From contig JAPLPS010000070.1 in assembly GCA_026400075.1 (NCBI GenBank), forward strand, positions 1-52,072: a stretch of DNA of 52,072 nucleotides, written 5' to 3'. The DNA comes from Polaromonas sp. Lineage in GTDB: Bacteria > Pseudomonadota > Gammaproteobacteria > Burkholderiales > Burkholderiaceae_C. The notes below the pieces were generated by a model. It was given only the letters and a program-made list of their open reading frames with translations, did not search any database and had not been told where the DNA came from. Both the position numbers and the translations under genes were made by a program. Positions 2,801 to 9,615 of the stretch are shown here, one piece after another. Every line of letters starts with the position of its first letter. The first letter of the stretch is position 1.

Positions 2801-5371
2801 TTGGCCCCGGCAGGCCCGCCAGAAACAATTCATGTAACGGTGAGCAGCGTGATTGACGCCCGGTTACAGGTGCTGAAAAATCCTCTGCCATCGGCCGCTG
2901 CCAGCACGACTCTGAGCGGCCAGATGCCTTGCGCGGCGCTGCCGCAGGCCAGCCTGCTGCTCATGACCGAGCGCACAGCGCGCATCGGCAGCTGGAGCCT
3001 GACGCTGGCGCAGCAGCAATTGCAGCATTCGCGCCAATGCGCCGCCATCCTGGCCCTGCCGCCGGGCACGCCGCTGACGCTCAAGGCGCTGGTGGCACGC
3101 TTCACGCCCGAAGCGGGCGAGCGGCTGAGCGCGCTGCTGCAGGCCTGCAGCCACGACGCAGCGCCTTTTGACGAGGAAATGCAGCTGCTCGCCCCGGCCG
3201 GGGATTGCCAGTGGGTGCGCGCCGTGGGCCAGGCCGTGCGCAGCGAGGACGGCCAGATCACCGGCCTGCAAGGCGTGCTGCAGGACATTTCGGCGCAAAA
3301 GCAGGCCCAGAGCGACACCGTGCGCCTGACCATGCGCCTGAGCACCACGCTAGCCAGCATCACCGAGGCCTTTGTCACGCTGGATCGCCAGTGCGCCTTC
3401 ACCTACCTGAACCCGGAAAGCGAGCGCCTGCTGCAGCGCCCGGCGGGCGAACTGCTGGGCCAGAAAGTCTGGAAAGATGCGAACCAGGGCGTCGGCCAGC
3501 GCCTCAAGCAGCAGCTCGAAAACGCCCTGGCCAGCGACCGCCGCACCGAGTTCGAGGATTTTTACCCGCACCTGGGCCGCTGGCTCGAAGTGCGCGCCTA
3601 CCCGTTCGCCGAAGGCCTGGCGGTGTACCTGCGCGATGTCACGAAGCGACGCAGGGCGCAGGAGCAGCAAATGCTGCTGGAGACCTGCGTGTCCCGGCTC
3701 AACGACATCGTGCTGGTCGCCGAAGTCCGCAGCGCCAGCCTGCCCCACATCGTGTTTGTCAACCACGCCTTTGAACACCACACCGGCTACAAGCGCCACG
3801 AGGTGCTCGGCCAGACGCCGCAGCTGCTGTTCAACCCCGACACCGCGCCCGGCGAGCTCGAACGCATGGCCGCCACGTTGCAGCACCAGCGCCATATTCA
3901 CCGCGAGGTGCTGATTTACCGAAAAAACGCCAGCAGCTTCTGGCTGGAGCTGGAAATCGTGCGCGTGCGCGCCCCGACCGGCGAGCTGACCCACTGGGTC
4001 GCCGTGGGCCGCGACATCACCCAGCGCAAGAACGCCGCCGACGCCATCCACCACATGGCTTTTTACGATGCACTCACGTCGCTGCCGAACCGCCTGCTGC
4101 TGCTCCAGCGGCTCGAACACCTGCTGACCCAGAACGCCCAGACCCGCACCCAGGGCGCGCTGATGTTCATCGACGTGGACAAGCTCAAGGTGCTCAACGA
4201 CACGCTGGGCCACGCGCATGGCGACCGGCTGCTGCAGCAGGTGGCCATTCGCCTGAGCAGCTGCGTTCCCAAGACCGACACCGTGGCGCGTCTGGGCGGC
4301 GACGAGTTCGTCATCATGCTCAACAACCTGGGCGACGATCCCGGCGCCGCCGCCCGCCGGGCGCGCAGCCTGGCCGACAGGGTGCTGATGCAGCTGCGCG
4401 AACCCTTCGATCTGATTGGCCACCAGCACTACACAACTTCCAGCATTGGCGTGACGCTGCTCAATGGCCAGCACGACAACGTCGGCGATGTGCTCAAGCA
4501 GGCCGATCTGGCGATGTACCAGGCCAAGGCCAGCGGGCGCAACGCCGTGTGCTTTTTTGATCCCGAAATGCAGCAGGCGATCAACGCCAGCGCCGCCGTC
4601 AGCACCGAGCTGCATATCGCCCTGCGCGAACACCAGTTCCGGCTGCACTACCAGCCCCAGGTGAACCGCCAGGGCCGCCTCGTCGGCGTCGAGGCGCTGC
4701 TGCGCTGGCAGCACCCGACGCGCGGACTGCTGGCACCGGATGCCTTCATCCCGATGGCCGAAGAAAGCGGCCTGATCCTGCCGCTGGGCCACTGGGCGCT
4801 GAAGACGGCCTGCGAACAGCTGGCCGCCTGGTCGCGCTGGCCGCTGGCCTCCAGCCTGAGCATGGCAGTCAATGTCAGCGTCTGCCAGTTCCGCCACCCC
4901 GAGTTTGTCGAGCGGGTGATGGCCGAAATCGAGCGCACCGGCATCCGCCCGCAGCGCCTCAAGCTCGAACTGACCGAAAGCGTGCTGGCCGACGGCATGG
5001 AGATCACGCTGGCCAAAATGGGCACGCTCAAGGCAATGGGCGTGACGCTGGCGCTGGACGATTTCGGCATGGGCTACTCGTCGCTGTCGCTGCTCAAGCG
5101 GCTGCCGCTGGATCAGCTGAAGATCGACCGCAGCTTTGTCAGCGATGTGCTCAGCGACCGCAACGACGCAGCCATCTCGCGCACCATCATCACGCTGGCG
5201 CACAGCCTGAACCTGCAAGTCGTCGCCGAAGGCGTGGAAACCCAGGCCCAGCGCGACTTTCTGCTCAACGAAGGCTGCGACCTGTTCCAGGGCTTTTTGT
5301 TTGCCGAGCCGCTGACGCTGCAGGCGCTGGAGGCCTATCTGGTGGCGCAGGCGGCGCGCAGCCACCACTGA
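2801..5371 (+). CDS. PAS-containing diguanylate cyclase/phosphodiesterase (GGDEF-EAL)
   Basis: PAS segments, RLGGDEFVIML, EALLRWQHP, DDFGMGYSSLSLLKRLPLDQLKIDRSFV; exact start uncertain. Confidence 0.93.
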   Translation: MAPAGPPETIHVTVSSVIDARLQVLKNPLPSAAASTTLSGQMPCAALPQASLLLMTERTARIGSWSLTLAQQQLQHSRQCAAILALPPGTPLTLKALVARFTPEAGERLSALLQACSHDAAPFDEEMQLLAPAGDCQWVRAVGQAVRSEDGQITGLQGVLQDISAQKQAQSDTVRLTMRLSTTLASITEAFVTLDRQCAFTYLNPESERLLQRPAGELLGQKVWKDANQGVGQRLKQQLENALASDRRTEFEDFYPHLGRWLEVRAYPFAEGLAVYLRDVTKRRRAQEQQMLLETCVSRLNDIVLVAEVRSASLPHIVFVNHAFEHHTGYKRHEVLGQTPQLLFNPDTAPGELERMAATLQHQRHIHREVLIYRKNASSFWLELEIVRVRAPTGELTHWVAVGRDITQRKNAADAIHHMAFYDALTSLPNRLLLLQRLEHLLTQNAQTRTQGALMFIDVDKLKVLNDTLGHAHGDRLLQQVAIRLSSCVPKTDTVARLGGDEFVIMLNNLGDDPGAAARRARSLADRVLMQLREPFDLIGHQHYTTSSIGVTLLNGQHDNVGDVLKQADLAMYQAKASGRNAVCFFDPEMQQAINASAAVSTELHIALREHQFRLHYQPQVNRQGRLVGVEALLRWQHPTRGLLAPDAFIPMAEESGLILPLGHWALKTACEQLAAWSRWPLASSLSMAVNVSVCQFRHPEFVERVMAEIERTGIRPQRLKLELTESVLADGMEITLAKMGTLKAMGVTLALDDFGMGYSSLSLLKRLPLDQLKIDRSFVSDVLSDRNDAAISRTIITLAHSLNLQVVAEGVETQAQRDFLLNEGCDLFQGFLFAEPLTLQALEAYLVAQAARSHH

Positions 5372-5513
5372 GTGGCCGAAAGGCGACGTATTCAGCCACC
5401 TTGTGGAATTCGGCTCAAGTACCTGATGGGTATTACTTTTTTCTACACATACGTAGATATTTCAACCCAACATCCATCAGTTACGATAGTTGAGCAACAC
5501 CCACAGGATCGGA

Positions 5514-5906
5514 ATGGCATTTTCACCAAACATGAAGGCAGCAGCCCAAAGACACTTGAACGCTGCAGAAGAATTGAACGCAGGGCATCGTCGTGATGTT
5601 GCTGGCTACTTATACGGAATAGCGGATGAATGTGCTATCAAGGCCATGATGATTGACGTGGGCTTTCGACCTACCGGTGCTCGTGGCGACCCTTTTTATC
5701 TGCACTTTCCTCATTTACGTACTGCACTTCTTGACAGTCTGGAAGGCAGGAGAGCAGCTCCGCTGAGCCACTTCGCCATGGACGCTTCATTTTTTAGCCA
5801 TTGGGCCATTGATATGCGCTACTGCAAAGGCGATGAAATATTGGCTGCATGGGTGGAAAGCTGGGCAGGCCAAGCGCGACAAACGGTTGCTTCAATCGGA
5901 ACTTAA
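5514..5906 (+). CDS. Small HEPN-like protein, first gene of a three-gene cassette
   Basis: AAQRHLNAAEELNAGHRRDVAGYLYGIADECAIKAMM resembles HEPN helices; ...WAIDMRY... near the C-terminus; ATG at 5514 preceded by AGGATCGGA. Confidence 0.6.
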   Translation: MAFSPNMKAAAQRHLNAAEELNAGHRRDVAGYLYGIADECAIKAMMIDVGFRPTGARGDPFYLHFPHLRTALLDSLEGRRAAPLSHFAMDASFFSHWAIDMRYCKGDEILAAWVESWAGQARQTVASIGT

Positions 5907-5915
5907 AGGACTTTT

Positions 5916-7295
5916 ATGACTGTTCGATTTGACGACAGCCTTCCCGCACTTGTATCAGTTATTGAAGCTGGATTTGGTAGCGCTGCACTTGCGGACGGTG
6001 TTGCTGTGCGTGACATCACGGGCCGCCTTGCATTCGTGCTTCCTACCGAGTTTGACGCTGAACTTGTCGAGCGTATCGGGAAACTTCTGCAAGAAGCGCT
6101 AGGCCCCTATGCGCGCAGTGATCGCCTGCTAGTGGCCTCCACCGACTTCGGCGCAGAAGCGTTGCTGACAGCGCCATCGGTTTTATCAGTCAGCGTCACC
6201 GGCCGAAGCATACGGTTGATAGATCGACGGCTGGTTGGCGCAGACTGGCTGCGCACACCCGCAAAGAAGGCGTTGCCGCCACCCCGTTTCGTTTTTGCAA
6301 GTCTGAAGGGCGGCGTTGGCAGATCAACAGCCTTGGCCATAACGGCCGCTCATTTAGCATCTACCGGGAAACGCGTATTGACCATAGACCTTGATATGGA
6401 GGCGCCGGGACTCGGTTCATTGTTACTCGACGATGGCACTTTGCCCGAGTTTGGACTCATTGATGCGCTCGTCGAAAATGGACTGGCACCATTGGATGAA
6501 ACATTCTTAGCCGACCTTGTCGGCCCTTCTGATCTCGCAGACCGGCGTGGACAAATAGACGTTATTCCTGCGTTTGGGCGGCGCTCTATCAACAATCCGG
6601 GCGACGTGCTTTCAAAGATTTCCCGTGCGTACACGGAAGATATCCGACCAGATGGCAGTATGGCGTCAATTCTTGATCAGATAAGCGATCTGGTTGACCG
6701 CTTTTCCGACCCTATGCGCTATGACGCCATTCTTATCGATGCACGCGCTGGATTGCATGAAACCACTGCAACGGCAATTCTTGGTTTAGGTGCAGAGGTC
6801 TTTCTCTTTGGTTTGGATGAGCGTCAAACCTTTCAAGGCTACGCAGCATTACTTGGTCATTTGGGGCGTTTTGCTAAATCTTCTACAGACGAAGTTCCAG
6901 AATGGTTGGGCAGGTTGTCCATGATTCAAGGCAAGGCTCCTGCTGATGCCAGTGCCAGAGATGCGTTTGCGGAAAAATGCAAACAGCTATTTATTGACAC
7001 TGGACTAGAACCGCTCAGTTCACCACCAACTATTGAACCTCGCCCTGCCGCCGGATCTTTTAGTAATGTTCCATGGGACGACGAACAGAACGATGAGGAT
7101 GTTTTACCCAAGGAACTTCGCGTTTTTCGAGAGCCAGTGGCAATTTTGAATAACGAGCAATTCATGCAGTTTGATCCTCGACAAAAAAGAAATTTACTTT
7201 CGGCAGAGGTTTATCGATCCTCCTACAGCATGTTTTTAGATCGTGTGAATGAATCGTTCCCTGAGTCGAAGAAAATTGATCATGCTGCAAACTGA
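5916..7295 (+). CDS. ParA/MinD-like P-loop ATPase with KGGVGR variant Walker A
   Basis: FASLKGGVGRSTALAITAAHLASTGKRVLTIDLDMEAPGLGSLLL; DAILIDARAGLHETTA Walker B region; ~130 aa N-terminal extension. Confidence 0.85.
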   Translation: MTVRFDDSLPALVSVIEAGFGSAALADGVAVRDITGRLAFVLPTEFDAELVERIGKLLQEALGPYARSDRLLVASTDFGAEALLTAPSVLSVSVTGRSIRLIDRRLVGADWLRTPAKKALPPPRFVFASLKGGVGRSTALAITAAHLASTGKRVLTIDLDMEAPGLGSLLLDDGTLPEFGLIDALVENGLAPLDETFLADLVGPSDLADRRGQIDVIPAFGRRSINNPGDVLSKISRAYTEDIRPDGSMASILDQISDLVDRFSDPMRYDAILIDARAGLHETTATAILGLGAEVFLFGLDERQTFQGYAALLGHLGRFAKSSTDEVPEWLGRLSMIQGKAPADASARDAFAEKCKQLFIDTGLEPLSSPPTIEPRPAAGSFSNVPWDDEQNDEDVLPKELRVFREPVAILNNEQFMQFDPRQKRNLLSAEVYRSSYSMFLDRVNESFPESKKIDHAAN

Positions 7296-8745
7296 TTTCA
7301 AAGCCTTACGCGATGCAATTTCCTCCATTCCTGCTGATGTATCGAATGATGCTGTAGGTGAATATGCGCCAAAATTGCAAGATATCTTTGCACCAGAAAC
7401 GCATGCAGCCGCCCTCGCCCCTGGAGTACCGATTGTGGTTGGATCACGAGGGGCTGGCAAAAGCTTCTGGTCAGGCGTTTTGGGTCAGGACGAAACACGC
7501 CATGCAGCAGCCACAGCCTATCCGAATCTTGGCCTAGATCGAGTTCAGGTAGGTTTTGGTTTCACAGGTGCTGTCGGTGGCAGCGAAGGCGTCACGCCTG
7601 AAATGCTCAATTCATACGTCGGGACTAATGCGACGCCAGACGAAGCAAAGGGTTTTTGGTGGGCCACGATACTGCGCGCAGCCATCAAAGGAGCAGGCGA
7701 GACGCCCCTCAGTTTCAAGGACGCTGTACGAATGGCTTTCGACTGGGAGGAACGAAACAAGTCACTGGATAGATTAGAAAAACATTATCAAGATCAAAAC
7801 ACAACATTTCTAGTTGTTTATGACGCCTTGGACACGGTAGCTACTACATGGCCAAGGAGGCGACTCCTGACCGAGGCACTACTGGAAATCGTTTGGGCCA
7901 TGCGCGCCTATCGCCGGATCAAGGTCAAGTTATTTCTTCGGCCAGATCAAATTGATGATGATGCGCTGCGATTCGTCGAATTACCTAAATTACGTAGTGG
8001 CGCCATTCTTCTAAAATGGTCTGGCGCAGATTTATATGGACTTCTTTATTCCCGGTTGATTTTATCGCAGCTTGACCCGACCAAAAATGCATTCGATCAG
8101 CTACTGCGAAGTCTCAACATACCAAGCGCTAATCAAGAAATGATCCTAGCCCGACAATGGGCGCTTGCTCATAACATTGAAAACCAATCGCGTGTCATGG
8201 CTGTTCTGGCAAGTCCGTTCATGGGAGATGGTCCGAATGGTTTTAAAAAAGGCAAGACATACGGTTGGCCGATAGAACATCTTGCCGATGCTTTTTCCGA
8301 AGTAACACCGAGAAGCTTTTTAGGACTAATGATTGCAGCATCAAAATTTGGAGGTATTCCTGAGGATCGGGCCATTACATCCGAGGGTATTCGTCATGGA
8401 TTGAGAGCAGCTTCAAAAACCCGTGTAGATCAACTACATCAAGAATTTCTCTGGATTAAGGGAGTACTCGCCCCGTTGGCAGGCTTACTGCTTCCACAGG
8501 CCGAAGAAGAAGTTTTTAAAGCATGGCGCAAGACAAATACATTGGCTCAATTAATTATGGACGCCGAGAATAACAAATACCTTCCACCCTTTGAGATCAC
8601 CAAATCAAACAGTGAGCGAGATATATTTTTAGCATTGGAAAGAATTGGCGTAATGTTCAGTCGCAAAGATGGACGCCTAGACATGCCCGACTTATTTCGA
8701 GTAGCTGCCAAGCTTCTAAAAAAAGGGGGGACGGCACCCGCCTGA
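7282..8745 (+). CDS. Large P-loop ATPase, third gene of the cassette
   Basis: VVGSRGAGKSFWSGVL Walker A, TTFLVVYDALD Walker B-like, VKLFLRPDQID; start MLQTDFKAL overlaps the preceding gene by 14 bp. Confidence 0.75.
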   Translation: MLQTDFKALRDAISSIPADVSNDAVGEYAPKLQDIFAPETHAAALAPGVPIVVGSRGAGKSFWSGVLGQDETRHAAATAYPNLGLDRVQVGFGFTGAVGGSEGVTPEMLNSYVGTNATPDEAKGFWWATILRAAIKGAGETPLSFKDAVRMAFDWEERNKSLDRLEKHYQDQNTTFLVVYDALDTVATTWPRRRLLTEALLEIVWAMRAYRRIKVKLFLRPDQIDDDALRFVELPKLRSGAILLKWSGADLYGLLYSRLILSQLDPTKNAFDQLLRSLNIPSANQEMILARQWALAHNIENQSRVMAVLASPFMGDGPNGFKKGKTYGWPIEHLADAFSEVTPRSFLGLMIAASKFGGIPEDRAITSEGIRHGLRAASKTRVDQLHQEFLWIKGVLAPLAGLLLPQAEEEVFKAWRKTNTLAQLIMDAENNKYLPPFEITKSNSERDIFLALERIGVMFSRKDGRLDMPDLFRVAAKLLKKGGTAPA

Positions 8746-8830
8746 CGCGTTTAGTTACATCAATCAAATTCTCCTGCGAACTGATTGTTCGCCACAAGCG
8801 GCAAGCGGCAGGCGCCTAATTTCTGGCGCC

Positions 8831-9571
8831 TCAAGCCTTCACGCCGCGCCCGCCAAAAATCGCCGTCCCGACTCGCACCATCGTGCTGCCTGCCTGCACC
8901 GCCGCGTCCAGATCCCCCGTCATGCCCATCGACAGCGTATCGAGCGGCGCGGGCAGCAGGCCGCTGGCGTTGAGCTGGTCAAACAGGGCTTTGGTGCGCG
9001 CGTGAACCGCGCAGGCGGCGGCAAAATCGGCCGACGGTTCGGGAATCGCCATCAGCCCGCGCAGCACCAGGCGCGGCAGACGGGCCACTTGCTGCGCCAG
9101 CGCCAGCGCGTTTTCGGGCGCCAGGCCCGATTTGTTCGCGCCGCCGTCGATGTTGACCTGCAGGCAGACCTGCAGCGGCGGCAAATCCGGCGGGCGCTGC
9201 TCGCTCAGGCGCTCGGCGATTTTCAGCCGGTCTAGCGACTGCACCCAGTCGAAGTTTTCCGCCACCAGCCGCGTCTTGTTGCTCTGAATCGGGCCGATGC
9301 AGTGCCACTCCAGCGTCGGCGCGGCCACGCCGGTGCGCGCTGTTTCAGCGTCCTGCCAGCGGCGTAGTTCCGCGATTTTTTCGACGCCTTCGGCGATGTA
9401 GTTTTCGCCAAAAGCGCGCTGCCCGGCGGCGATGGCTTCGATGACGGCGTCGGCGCCAAAAGTTTTGGAAACCGCCAGCAGGCGCACGCCCGCCGGGTCG
9501 CGCCCGGCGGCCCGGCAGGCGGCATGGATTCGGTCATGGACAAGGCAAAGTTGGTGCGCAATCGTGGTCAT
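8831..9571 (-). CDS. yggS: YggS family pyridoxal phosphate homeostasis protein
   Basis: LLAVSKTFGADAVIEAIAAGQRAFGENY...WHCIGPIQSNKTR...LSMGMTGDLDAAVQAGSTMVRVGTAIFG. Confidence 0.95.
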   Translation of the reverse strand: MTTIAHQLCLVHDRIHAACRAAGRDPAGVRLLAVSKTFGADAVIEAIAAGQRAFGENYIAEGVEKIAELRRWQDAETARTGVAAPTLEWHCIGPIQSNKTRLVAENFDWVQSLDRLKIAERLSEQRPPDLPPLQVCLQVNIDGGANKSGLAPENALALAQQVARLPRLVLRGLMAIPEPSADFAAACAVHARTKALFDQLNASGLLPAPLDTLSMGMTGDLDAAVQAGSTMVRVGTAIFGGRGVKA

Positions 9572-9615
9572 AATCCTGACTGTAAACTCAGATTCAACTT
9601 CCAAGGATTTGCCGG

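Follow-up and report, generated by a model that had tools for sequence, protein, structure and literature searches.

We characterized a three-gene cassette in a 52,072-nucleotide stretch of Polaromonas sp. DNA (contig JAPLPS010000070.1; hereafter, the window) and found it to be a copy of PDC-M28, a candidate defence system already catalogued in PADLOC. The locus is probably a mobile PDC-M28 operon that functions in anti-phage defence, most likely through abortive infection, with an AbiV-like HEPN protein as the output under ATPase control.

Results

The cassette is an additional member of PDC-M28

In PADLOC searches, the PDC-M28 A, B and C models were matched near full length by three adjacent genes lying in the same order: gene 1 matched PDC-M28A (1.8e-24), gene 2 PDC-M28B (4.9e-100, residues 1-450) and gene 3 PDC-M28C (6e-114, residues 12-497). 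Because all three genes match a single PADLOC system, the cassette is more than a chance association. The window copy shows no material difference from the catalogued system and is an additional member of it; a reading of the cassette as unrecorded is not supported. PDC systems are PADLOC-DB 2.0 candidates that emerged from a guilt-by-embedding screen, and most of them are unvalidated (PMC10855318, PMC12988326). In the literature searched, which included few subscription papers and left bioRxiv outside, we found neither a paper naming PDC-M28, KGGVGR or Sll1717 nor an experiment on any PDC-M28 member.

The three genes are tightly packed on the forward strand, as initially annotated. Gene 1 (PDC-M28A; 5514..5906) encodes an AbiV-like protein of 130 amino acids with a predicted HEPN fold; gene 2 (PDC-M28B; 5916..7295), a MinD/ParA-like SIMIBI ATPase of 459 amino acids; and gene 3 (PDC-M28C; 7282..8745), a predicted ORC/Cdc6-STAND-like AAA+ ATPase of 487 amino acids. 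A 9 bp gap separates genes 1 and 2, and genes 2 and 3 overlap by 14 bp. The ATG at 5514, preceded by AGGATCGG, is a likelier start for gene 1 than the TTG at 5490 on the same strand; gene 3 starts with the ATG at 7282, downstream of position 7249, at which its mechanical ORF begins. The cassette had been drawn from position 5372; its genes stand as described, and the stretch 5372..5513 is upstream intergenic DNA, presumed to be the promoter region. Promoter and terminator scans of the locus gave nothing above shuffled sequences, and no sigma-70-like site beyond chance was found in 5372..5513. The flanks also agree with the earlier placement between a c-di-GMP enzyme gene and yggS-pilT: a GGDEF/EAL gene (2801-5371) lies to the left and yggS (8831-9604, reverse strand), followed by pilT, to the right. 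The intergenic DNA from the cassette to the yggS stop (8746..8830) forms the right junction of the insertion.

The cassette was acquired horizontally

Horizontal acquisition of the cassette, proposed initially, is borne out by empty sites, atypical GC3 and the grouping of the window copy with viral and plasmid copies. The GC content is 0.45-0.57 over the cassette versus about 0.65 around it, so that the lower GC first noted is real. GC3 is 0.435, 0.45 and 0.406 for genes 1, 2 and 3, respectively, the lowest values among the 58 non-overlapping ORFs of the window, compared with 0.87 for the GGDEF/EAL gene, 0.79 for yggS and 0.83 for pilT. Gene 3 was present in only 2 of 101 relatives. In six genomes of the same genus, the GGDEF/EAL gene adjoins yggS directly, with a gap of <20 to about 150 bases. 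The source genome is a 452-contig assembly with an estimated contamination of 5%; the placement of the cassette in it is supported, since the empty sites have the same flanking genes. Searches of the locus revealed no flanking repeats, integrase, tRNA target near the insertion or RNA families.

In the gene 3 tree, the window copy and one from a viral contig, which share 60% identity, are sisters (support 0.999), and the pair then joins plasmid and viral copies (support 1.0). The copy on contig C92 of the same genome and that of a second species in the genus take other positions in the tree. The C92 copy belongs to a second, diverged PDC-M28 operon (L009, 3206-6407; about 30-35% identity), which by sequence inspection adjoins an OxyR-like regulator gene and lies near a ribosomal protein operon. 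A search of the genome's contigs with gene 2 alone gave one match (L008), set aside as an unrelated ParA-type protein.

The three genes travel together, in part within defence loci and proviruses

We searched 399 same-phylum genomes with all three PDC-M28 models. Raw matches to the gene 2 model occurred in 397 of the 399; we dismissed these as MinD/ParA cross-matches and counted full-length M28B matches (E < 1e-90) alone. At each of the 20 full-length M28B loci in this set, the operon also contains M28A and M28C, and M28C was strong without A and B at two further loci (L054 and L062). The order 1-2-3 was found at 12 of the 13 plasmid loci read, the record of the 13th (L014) ending after gene 2, and several plasmid copies adjoin a tyrosine integrase. 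The full triple was also present on 13 IMG/VR viral contigs. Terminase, integrase, Q-like antiterminator and partition genes lie near these copies, which indicates that at least several of the contigs are real proviruses; type I restriction–modification, methyltransferase and other PADLOC genes accompany them as well. The annotated phages yielded no relative of gene 1 or gene 2, though IMG/VR contigs have the operon, and the E. coli genomes contained no close copy of the cassette.

On plasmids of Streptomyces, Thiodictyon and Sphaerotilus (L016-L018), the triple sits inside BREX-2. On an Enterobacter asburiae plasmid, a TIR-domain gene follows the cassette (L015, 10100-10903). Chromosomal copies mostly have housekeeping genes as neighbours, and clustering in defence islands around them looks weak on inspection, made without a matched control. 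In the window, there is no other clear defence system, the cassette is neither embedded in nor near a known one, and no window protein matches the BREX type 2 core proteins pglW/X/Y/Z. Embedding is the feature by which the candidate was discovered and is not required of every copy. Matches to mad3 among the neighbours were discounted as generic. One other window protein, of 36 scanned, matches PADLOC PDC-S12 (1.9e-28). Since the chromosomal neighbours are mostly housekeeping genes and the window holds no other system, the evidence from defence context comes from plasmids and phages. The initial annotation had asked whether the genes co-occur in unrelated genomes and in defence islands; the former holds across the 20 loci, plasmids and viral contigs, and the latter fails for the window copy and for most of the chromosomal copies examined.

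Gene 2 is a KGGVGR variant and gene 3 an ORC/BrxC-like ATPase

The early reading of gene 2 as MinD/ParA-like with KGGVGRST agrees with its match to NCBIfam NF047398 (KGGVGR-motif variant AAA ATPase; 178.9 bits, cut-off 90), the deviant Walker A motif occupying residues 131-138. The P-loop lysine is replaced by arginine (R136) in all 23 gene 2 homologues, which share the signature lysine and several aspartates without exception. MinD/ParA-like domains recur in NTP-dependent conflict systems, where they are predicted to be inactive (PMC7159879), and it is plausible that gene 2 binds nucleotide without normal hydrolysis.

Gene 3, also recognized earlier as a P-loop ATPase, carries Walker A (GSRGAGKS) and Walker B (YDALD) motifs, with G54, G57, G59, K60 and D181 invariant. 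Its AlphaFold2 model (pLDDT 87.1) finds ORC2, Cdc6/Orc1 and BREX BrxC as best PDB matches in Foldseek (probability 1.0, E 1e-4 to 1e-3); the TM-scores are low, 0.28-0.36 over the query. Gene 3 thus is a P-loop ATPase of a predicted ORC/Cdc6-STAND-like AAA+ type, and may end in a winged helix, with which the secondary structure of the model is compatible. It matches the Sll1717 family of NCBIfam only below the cut-off, and sequence searches of solved structures returned nothing convincing. BrxC belongs to the ORC/Cdc6 clade (PMC12839542); it has 1200-1300 amino acids, whereas gene 3, with 487, is too short for the BrxC coiled coil.

Relatives show fusions and variant architectures

At three loci (L059, L060 and L063), the gene 3 frame extends into a calcineurin-like phosphoesterase (metallophosphatase) and a NACHT domain according to Pfam; the same extension is assigned to L061 by sequence and to L062 by length and clade. 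A single fusion event suffices for these five proteins (1328-1790 amino acids), because all of them form one clade. The fused metallophosphatase keeps its DLH, GD, GNHD and GHQH motifs, and genes 1 and 2 are kept at four of the five loci. The C-terminal part of the L060 protein contains low-complexity repeats rich in ARD/YWAR. The domain pair is that of DS-8 from DefensePredictor, the two being compared by domain names only; DS-8 protects against phage, and the protection is lost when either domain is mutated (PMC13092281). The window gene 3, unlike DS-8, has no metallophosphatase–NACHT extension. MinD/ParA-like and calcineurin domains also appear, with FGS domains, in STAND-based NTP-dependent conflict systems (PMC7159879, PMC8195603), a link that is thematic; no VMAP, vWA or MoxR component was seen at the cassette.

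Other relatives rearrange the ATPases. At L069, genes 2 and 3 form one ORF. A KGGVGR ATPase, Metallophos, NACHT and FGE-sulfatase occur in one polypeptide at L147 (Pfam), and similarly large KGGVGR proteins were found at L146, L148 and L149. We also observed a two-gene form (L137-L143, all seven loci), in which a small gene with weak resemblance to HEPN is followed by a single protein of 875-980 amino acids with both KGGVGR and ORC-like ATPases, and a HEPN gene paired with a 667-amino-acid KGGVGR protein (L144). At L146-L149, the KGGVGR protein of 1450-1500 amino acids comes after a pair of small conserved genes, with products of about 285 and 200 amino acids; the L150 protein has 612.

PDC-M28 may be a branch of a broader immune class, for the most part undescribed, that combines KGGVGR MinD-like and ORC/STAND-like ATPases with interchangeable outputs, a reading that we offer as possible and somewhat short of an even chance. 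As output, its members would use either an AbiV-like HEPN protein encoded on its own or an NLR-like metallophosphatase–NACHT module fused to gene 3 or directly to a KGGVGR ATPase, and the class would take in the two-gene forms with both ATPases as one protein.

Gene 1 has a predicted HEPN fold and lacks the usual catalytic histidine

The AlphaFold2 model of gene 1, built with only window and viral-contig sequences as input, is all-helical (pLDDT 88.7), and each of its 12 best Foldseek matches in the PDB is a domain of HEPN type (probability up to 1.00, TM about 0.4-0.62, E-values 0.06-1.6). They include 1o3u, 1wol, 2q00/2jpu, 4nqf, 2hsb, 3o10 and 1ufb, the last of which we take to be HEPN-type. 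For 2q00, the HEPN assignment is published (PMC3710099). The predicted fold of gene 1 is thus HEPN, in line with the first impression of a HEPN-like protein. Among 28 gene 1 homologues, Pfam HEPN_AbiV (PF18728) matched 11 (best 5.3e-5) and HEPN matched four; the window gene 1 itself falls below both models, and its sequence searches against solved structures gave nothing convincing.

W-x4-R-Y occurs in every one of 41 gene 1 homologues (W97 and R102-Y103 in the window copy). Alignment of the family also shows an invariant Ex3K (E39, K43) that agrees with the Ex3[KR] motif of the HEPN superfamily, a nearly invariant R13-H14 and a mostly conserved H64. Of the 41, 38, the window copy included, have no histidine at the position homologous to that of Rx4-6H; a histidine 4-6 residues past the arginine of W-x4-R-Y occurs in only about three. 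A reading of gene 1 as a canonical HEPN RNase is therefore not supported. Families without the Rx4-6H histidine are still classed as HEPN, and in AbiV and AF0298, which keep the arginine and lose the histidine, another conserved histidine upstream may form an alternative active site (PMC3710099). The residue pattern of gene 1, as read from the alignment, resembles this variation: like AbiV from Lactococcus (PF18728), the family keeps the arginine, loses the histidine, and has an N-terminal histidine and Ex3K. AbiV blocks phage and is thought to inhibit translation (PMC3231927). It differs in having 201 amino acids and being described without ATPase partners, whereas the 130-residue gene 1 product is encoded in an operon with two ATPases.

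Discussion

A defence role for the cassette is likely in our estimate. The initial annotation had proposed a conflict module, and PADLOC assignment, BREX-2 embedding, prophage carriage and the NACHT fusion link the cassette to defence; operon co-occurrence, patchy distribution and the AbiV precedent point the same way. None of the outcomes named beforehand as refuting was obtained: the homologues co-occur, no housekeeping role for the ATPases emerged, and gene 1 is predicted to adopt a HEPN fold. Across the relatives, the constant unit consists of two ATPases and a small HEPN protein. We infer from this evidence how the window copy might act in defence. Gene 3 and gene 2 would form a nucleotide-controlled sensing or switching unit, which would release or activate gene 1 upon infection; the AbiV-like HEPN protein might then attack RNA or block translation in the infected cell, as proposed for AbiV. 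That HEPN is the gated effector is about an even call. The missing HEPN catalytic histidine, the position of gene 1 below the Pfam models, the housekeeping surroundings and the lone gene 3 copies count against the defence and effector reading.

The main rival, somewhat unlikely, is that gene 1 serves as a non-catalytic HEPN sensor or adaptor that binds RNA, the toxic step falling to the ATPases or to a partner that gene 3 recruits, which in some relatives would be the fused metallophosphatase–NACHT module. HEPN domains without catalytic residues have been proposed to bind nucleic acid (PMC3710099), and the loss of the Rx4-6H histidine fits such a role, as do the intact metallophosphatase motifs at loci that mostly retain genes 1 and 2. 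Set against this, the conserved R102-Y103, Ex3K, R13-H14 and, mostly, H64 fit the alternative active site proposed for AbiV and AF0298, and most cassettes, the window one included, have no other visible effector.

Carriage on plasmids and prophages, together with a MinD/ParA-like ATPase, would also suit a toxin–antitoxin or plasmid/element maintenance module, with gene 1 as the toxin, genes 2 and 3 as its control and defence as a side effect; toxin–antitoxin systems commonly have HEPN toxins (PMC3710099). We regard this as improbable, given that the window locus has no ParB-like partner or centromere-like repeats, that copies also occur on chromosomes, within BREX and fused to NACHT, and that two large ATPases are unusual in such modules. 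That the cassette is an old acquisition serving the host in housekeeping or as an accessory regulatory operon, for instance in cell division or DNA maintenance, is very unlikely: the MinD/ParA superfamily membership of gene 2, the resemblance of gene 3 to ORC/Cdc6 initiators and the housekeeping neighbours of other chromosomal copies are outweighed by the rarity of the cassette among relatives, its atypical composition, its carriage on prophages and plasmids, and its embedding in BREX.

An ATPase-controlled HEPN defence operon is our preferred reading. The analysis supplies a catalogued candidate with a domain-level anatomy (an AbiV-like HEPN protein, a SIMIBI ATPase and an ORC/BrxC-like ATPase), identifies a clean empty site for it and ties it directly to NACHT/metallophosphatase immunity. 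Point mutation can now address the activity of PDC-M28 and what a HEPN protein does when it lacks the usual catalytic histidine.
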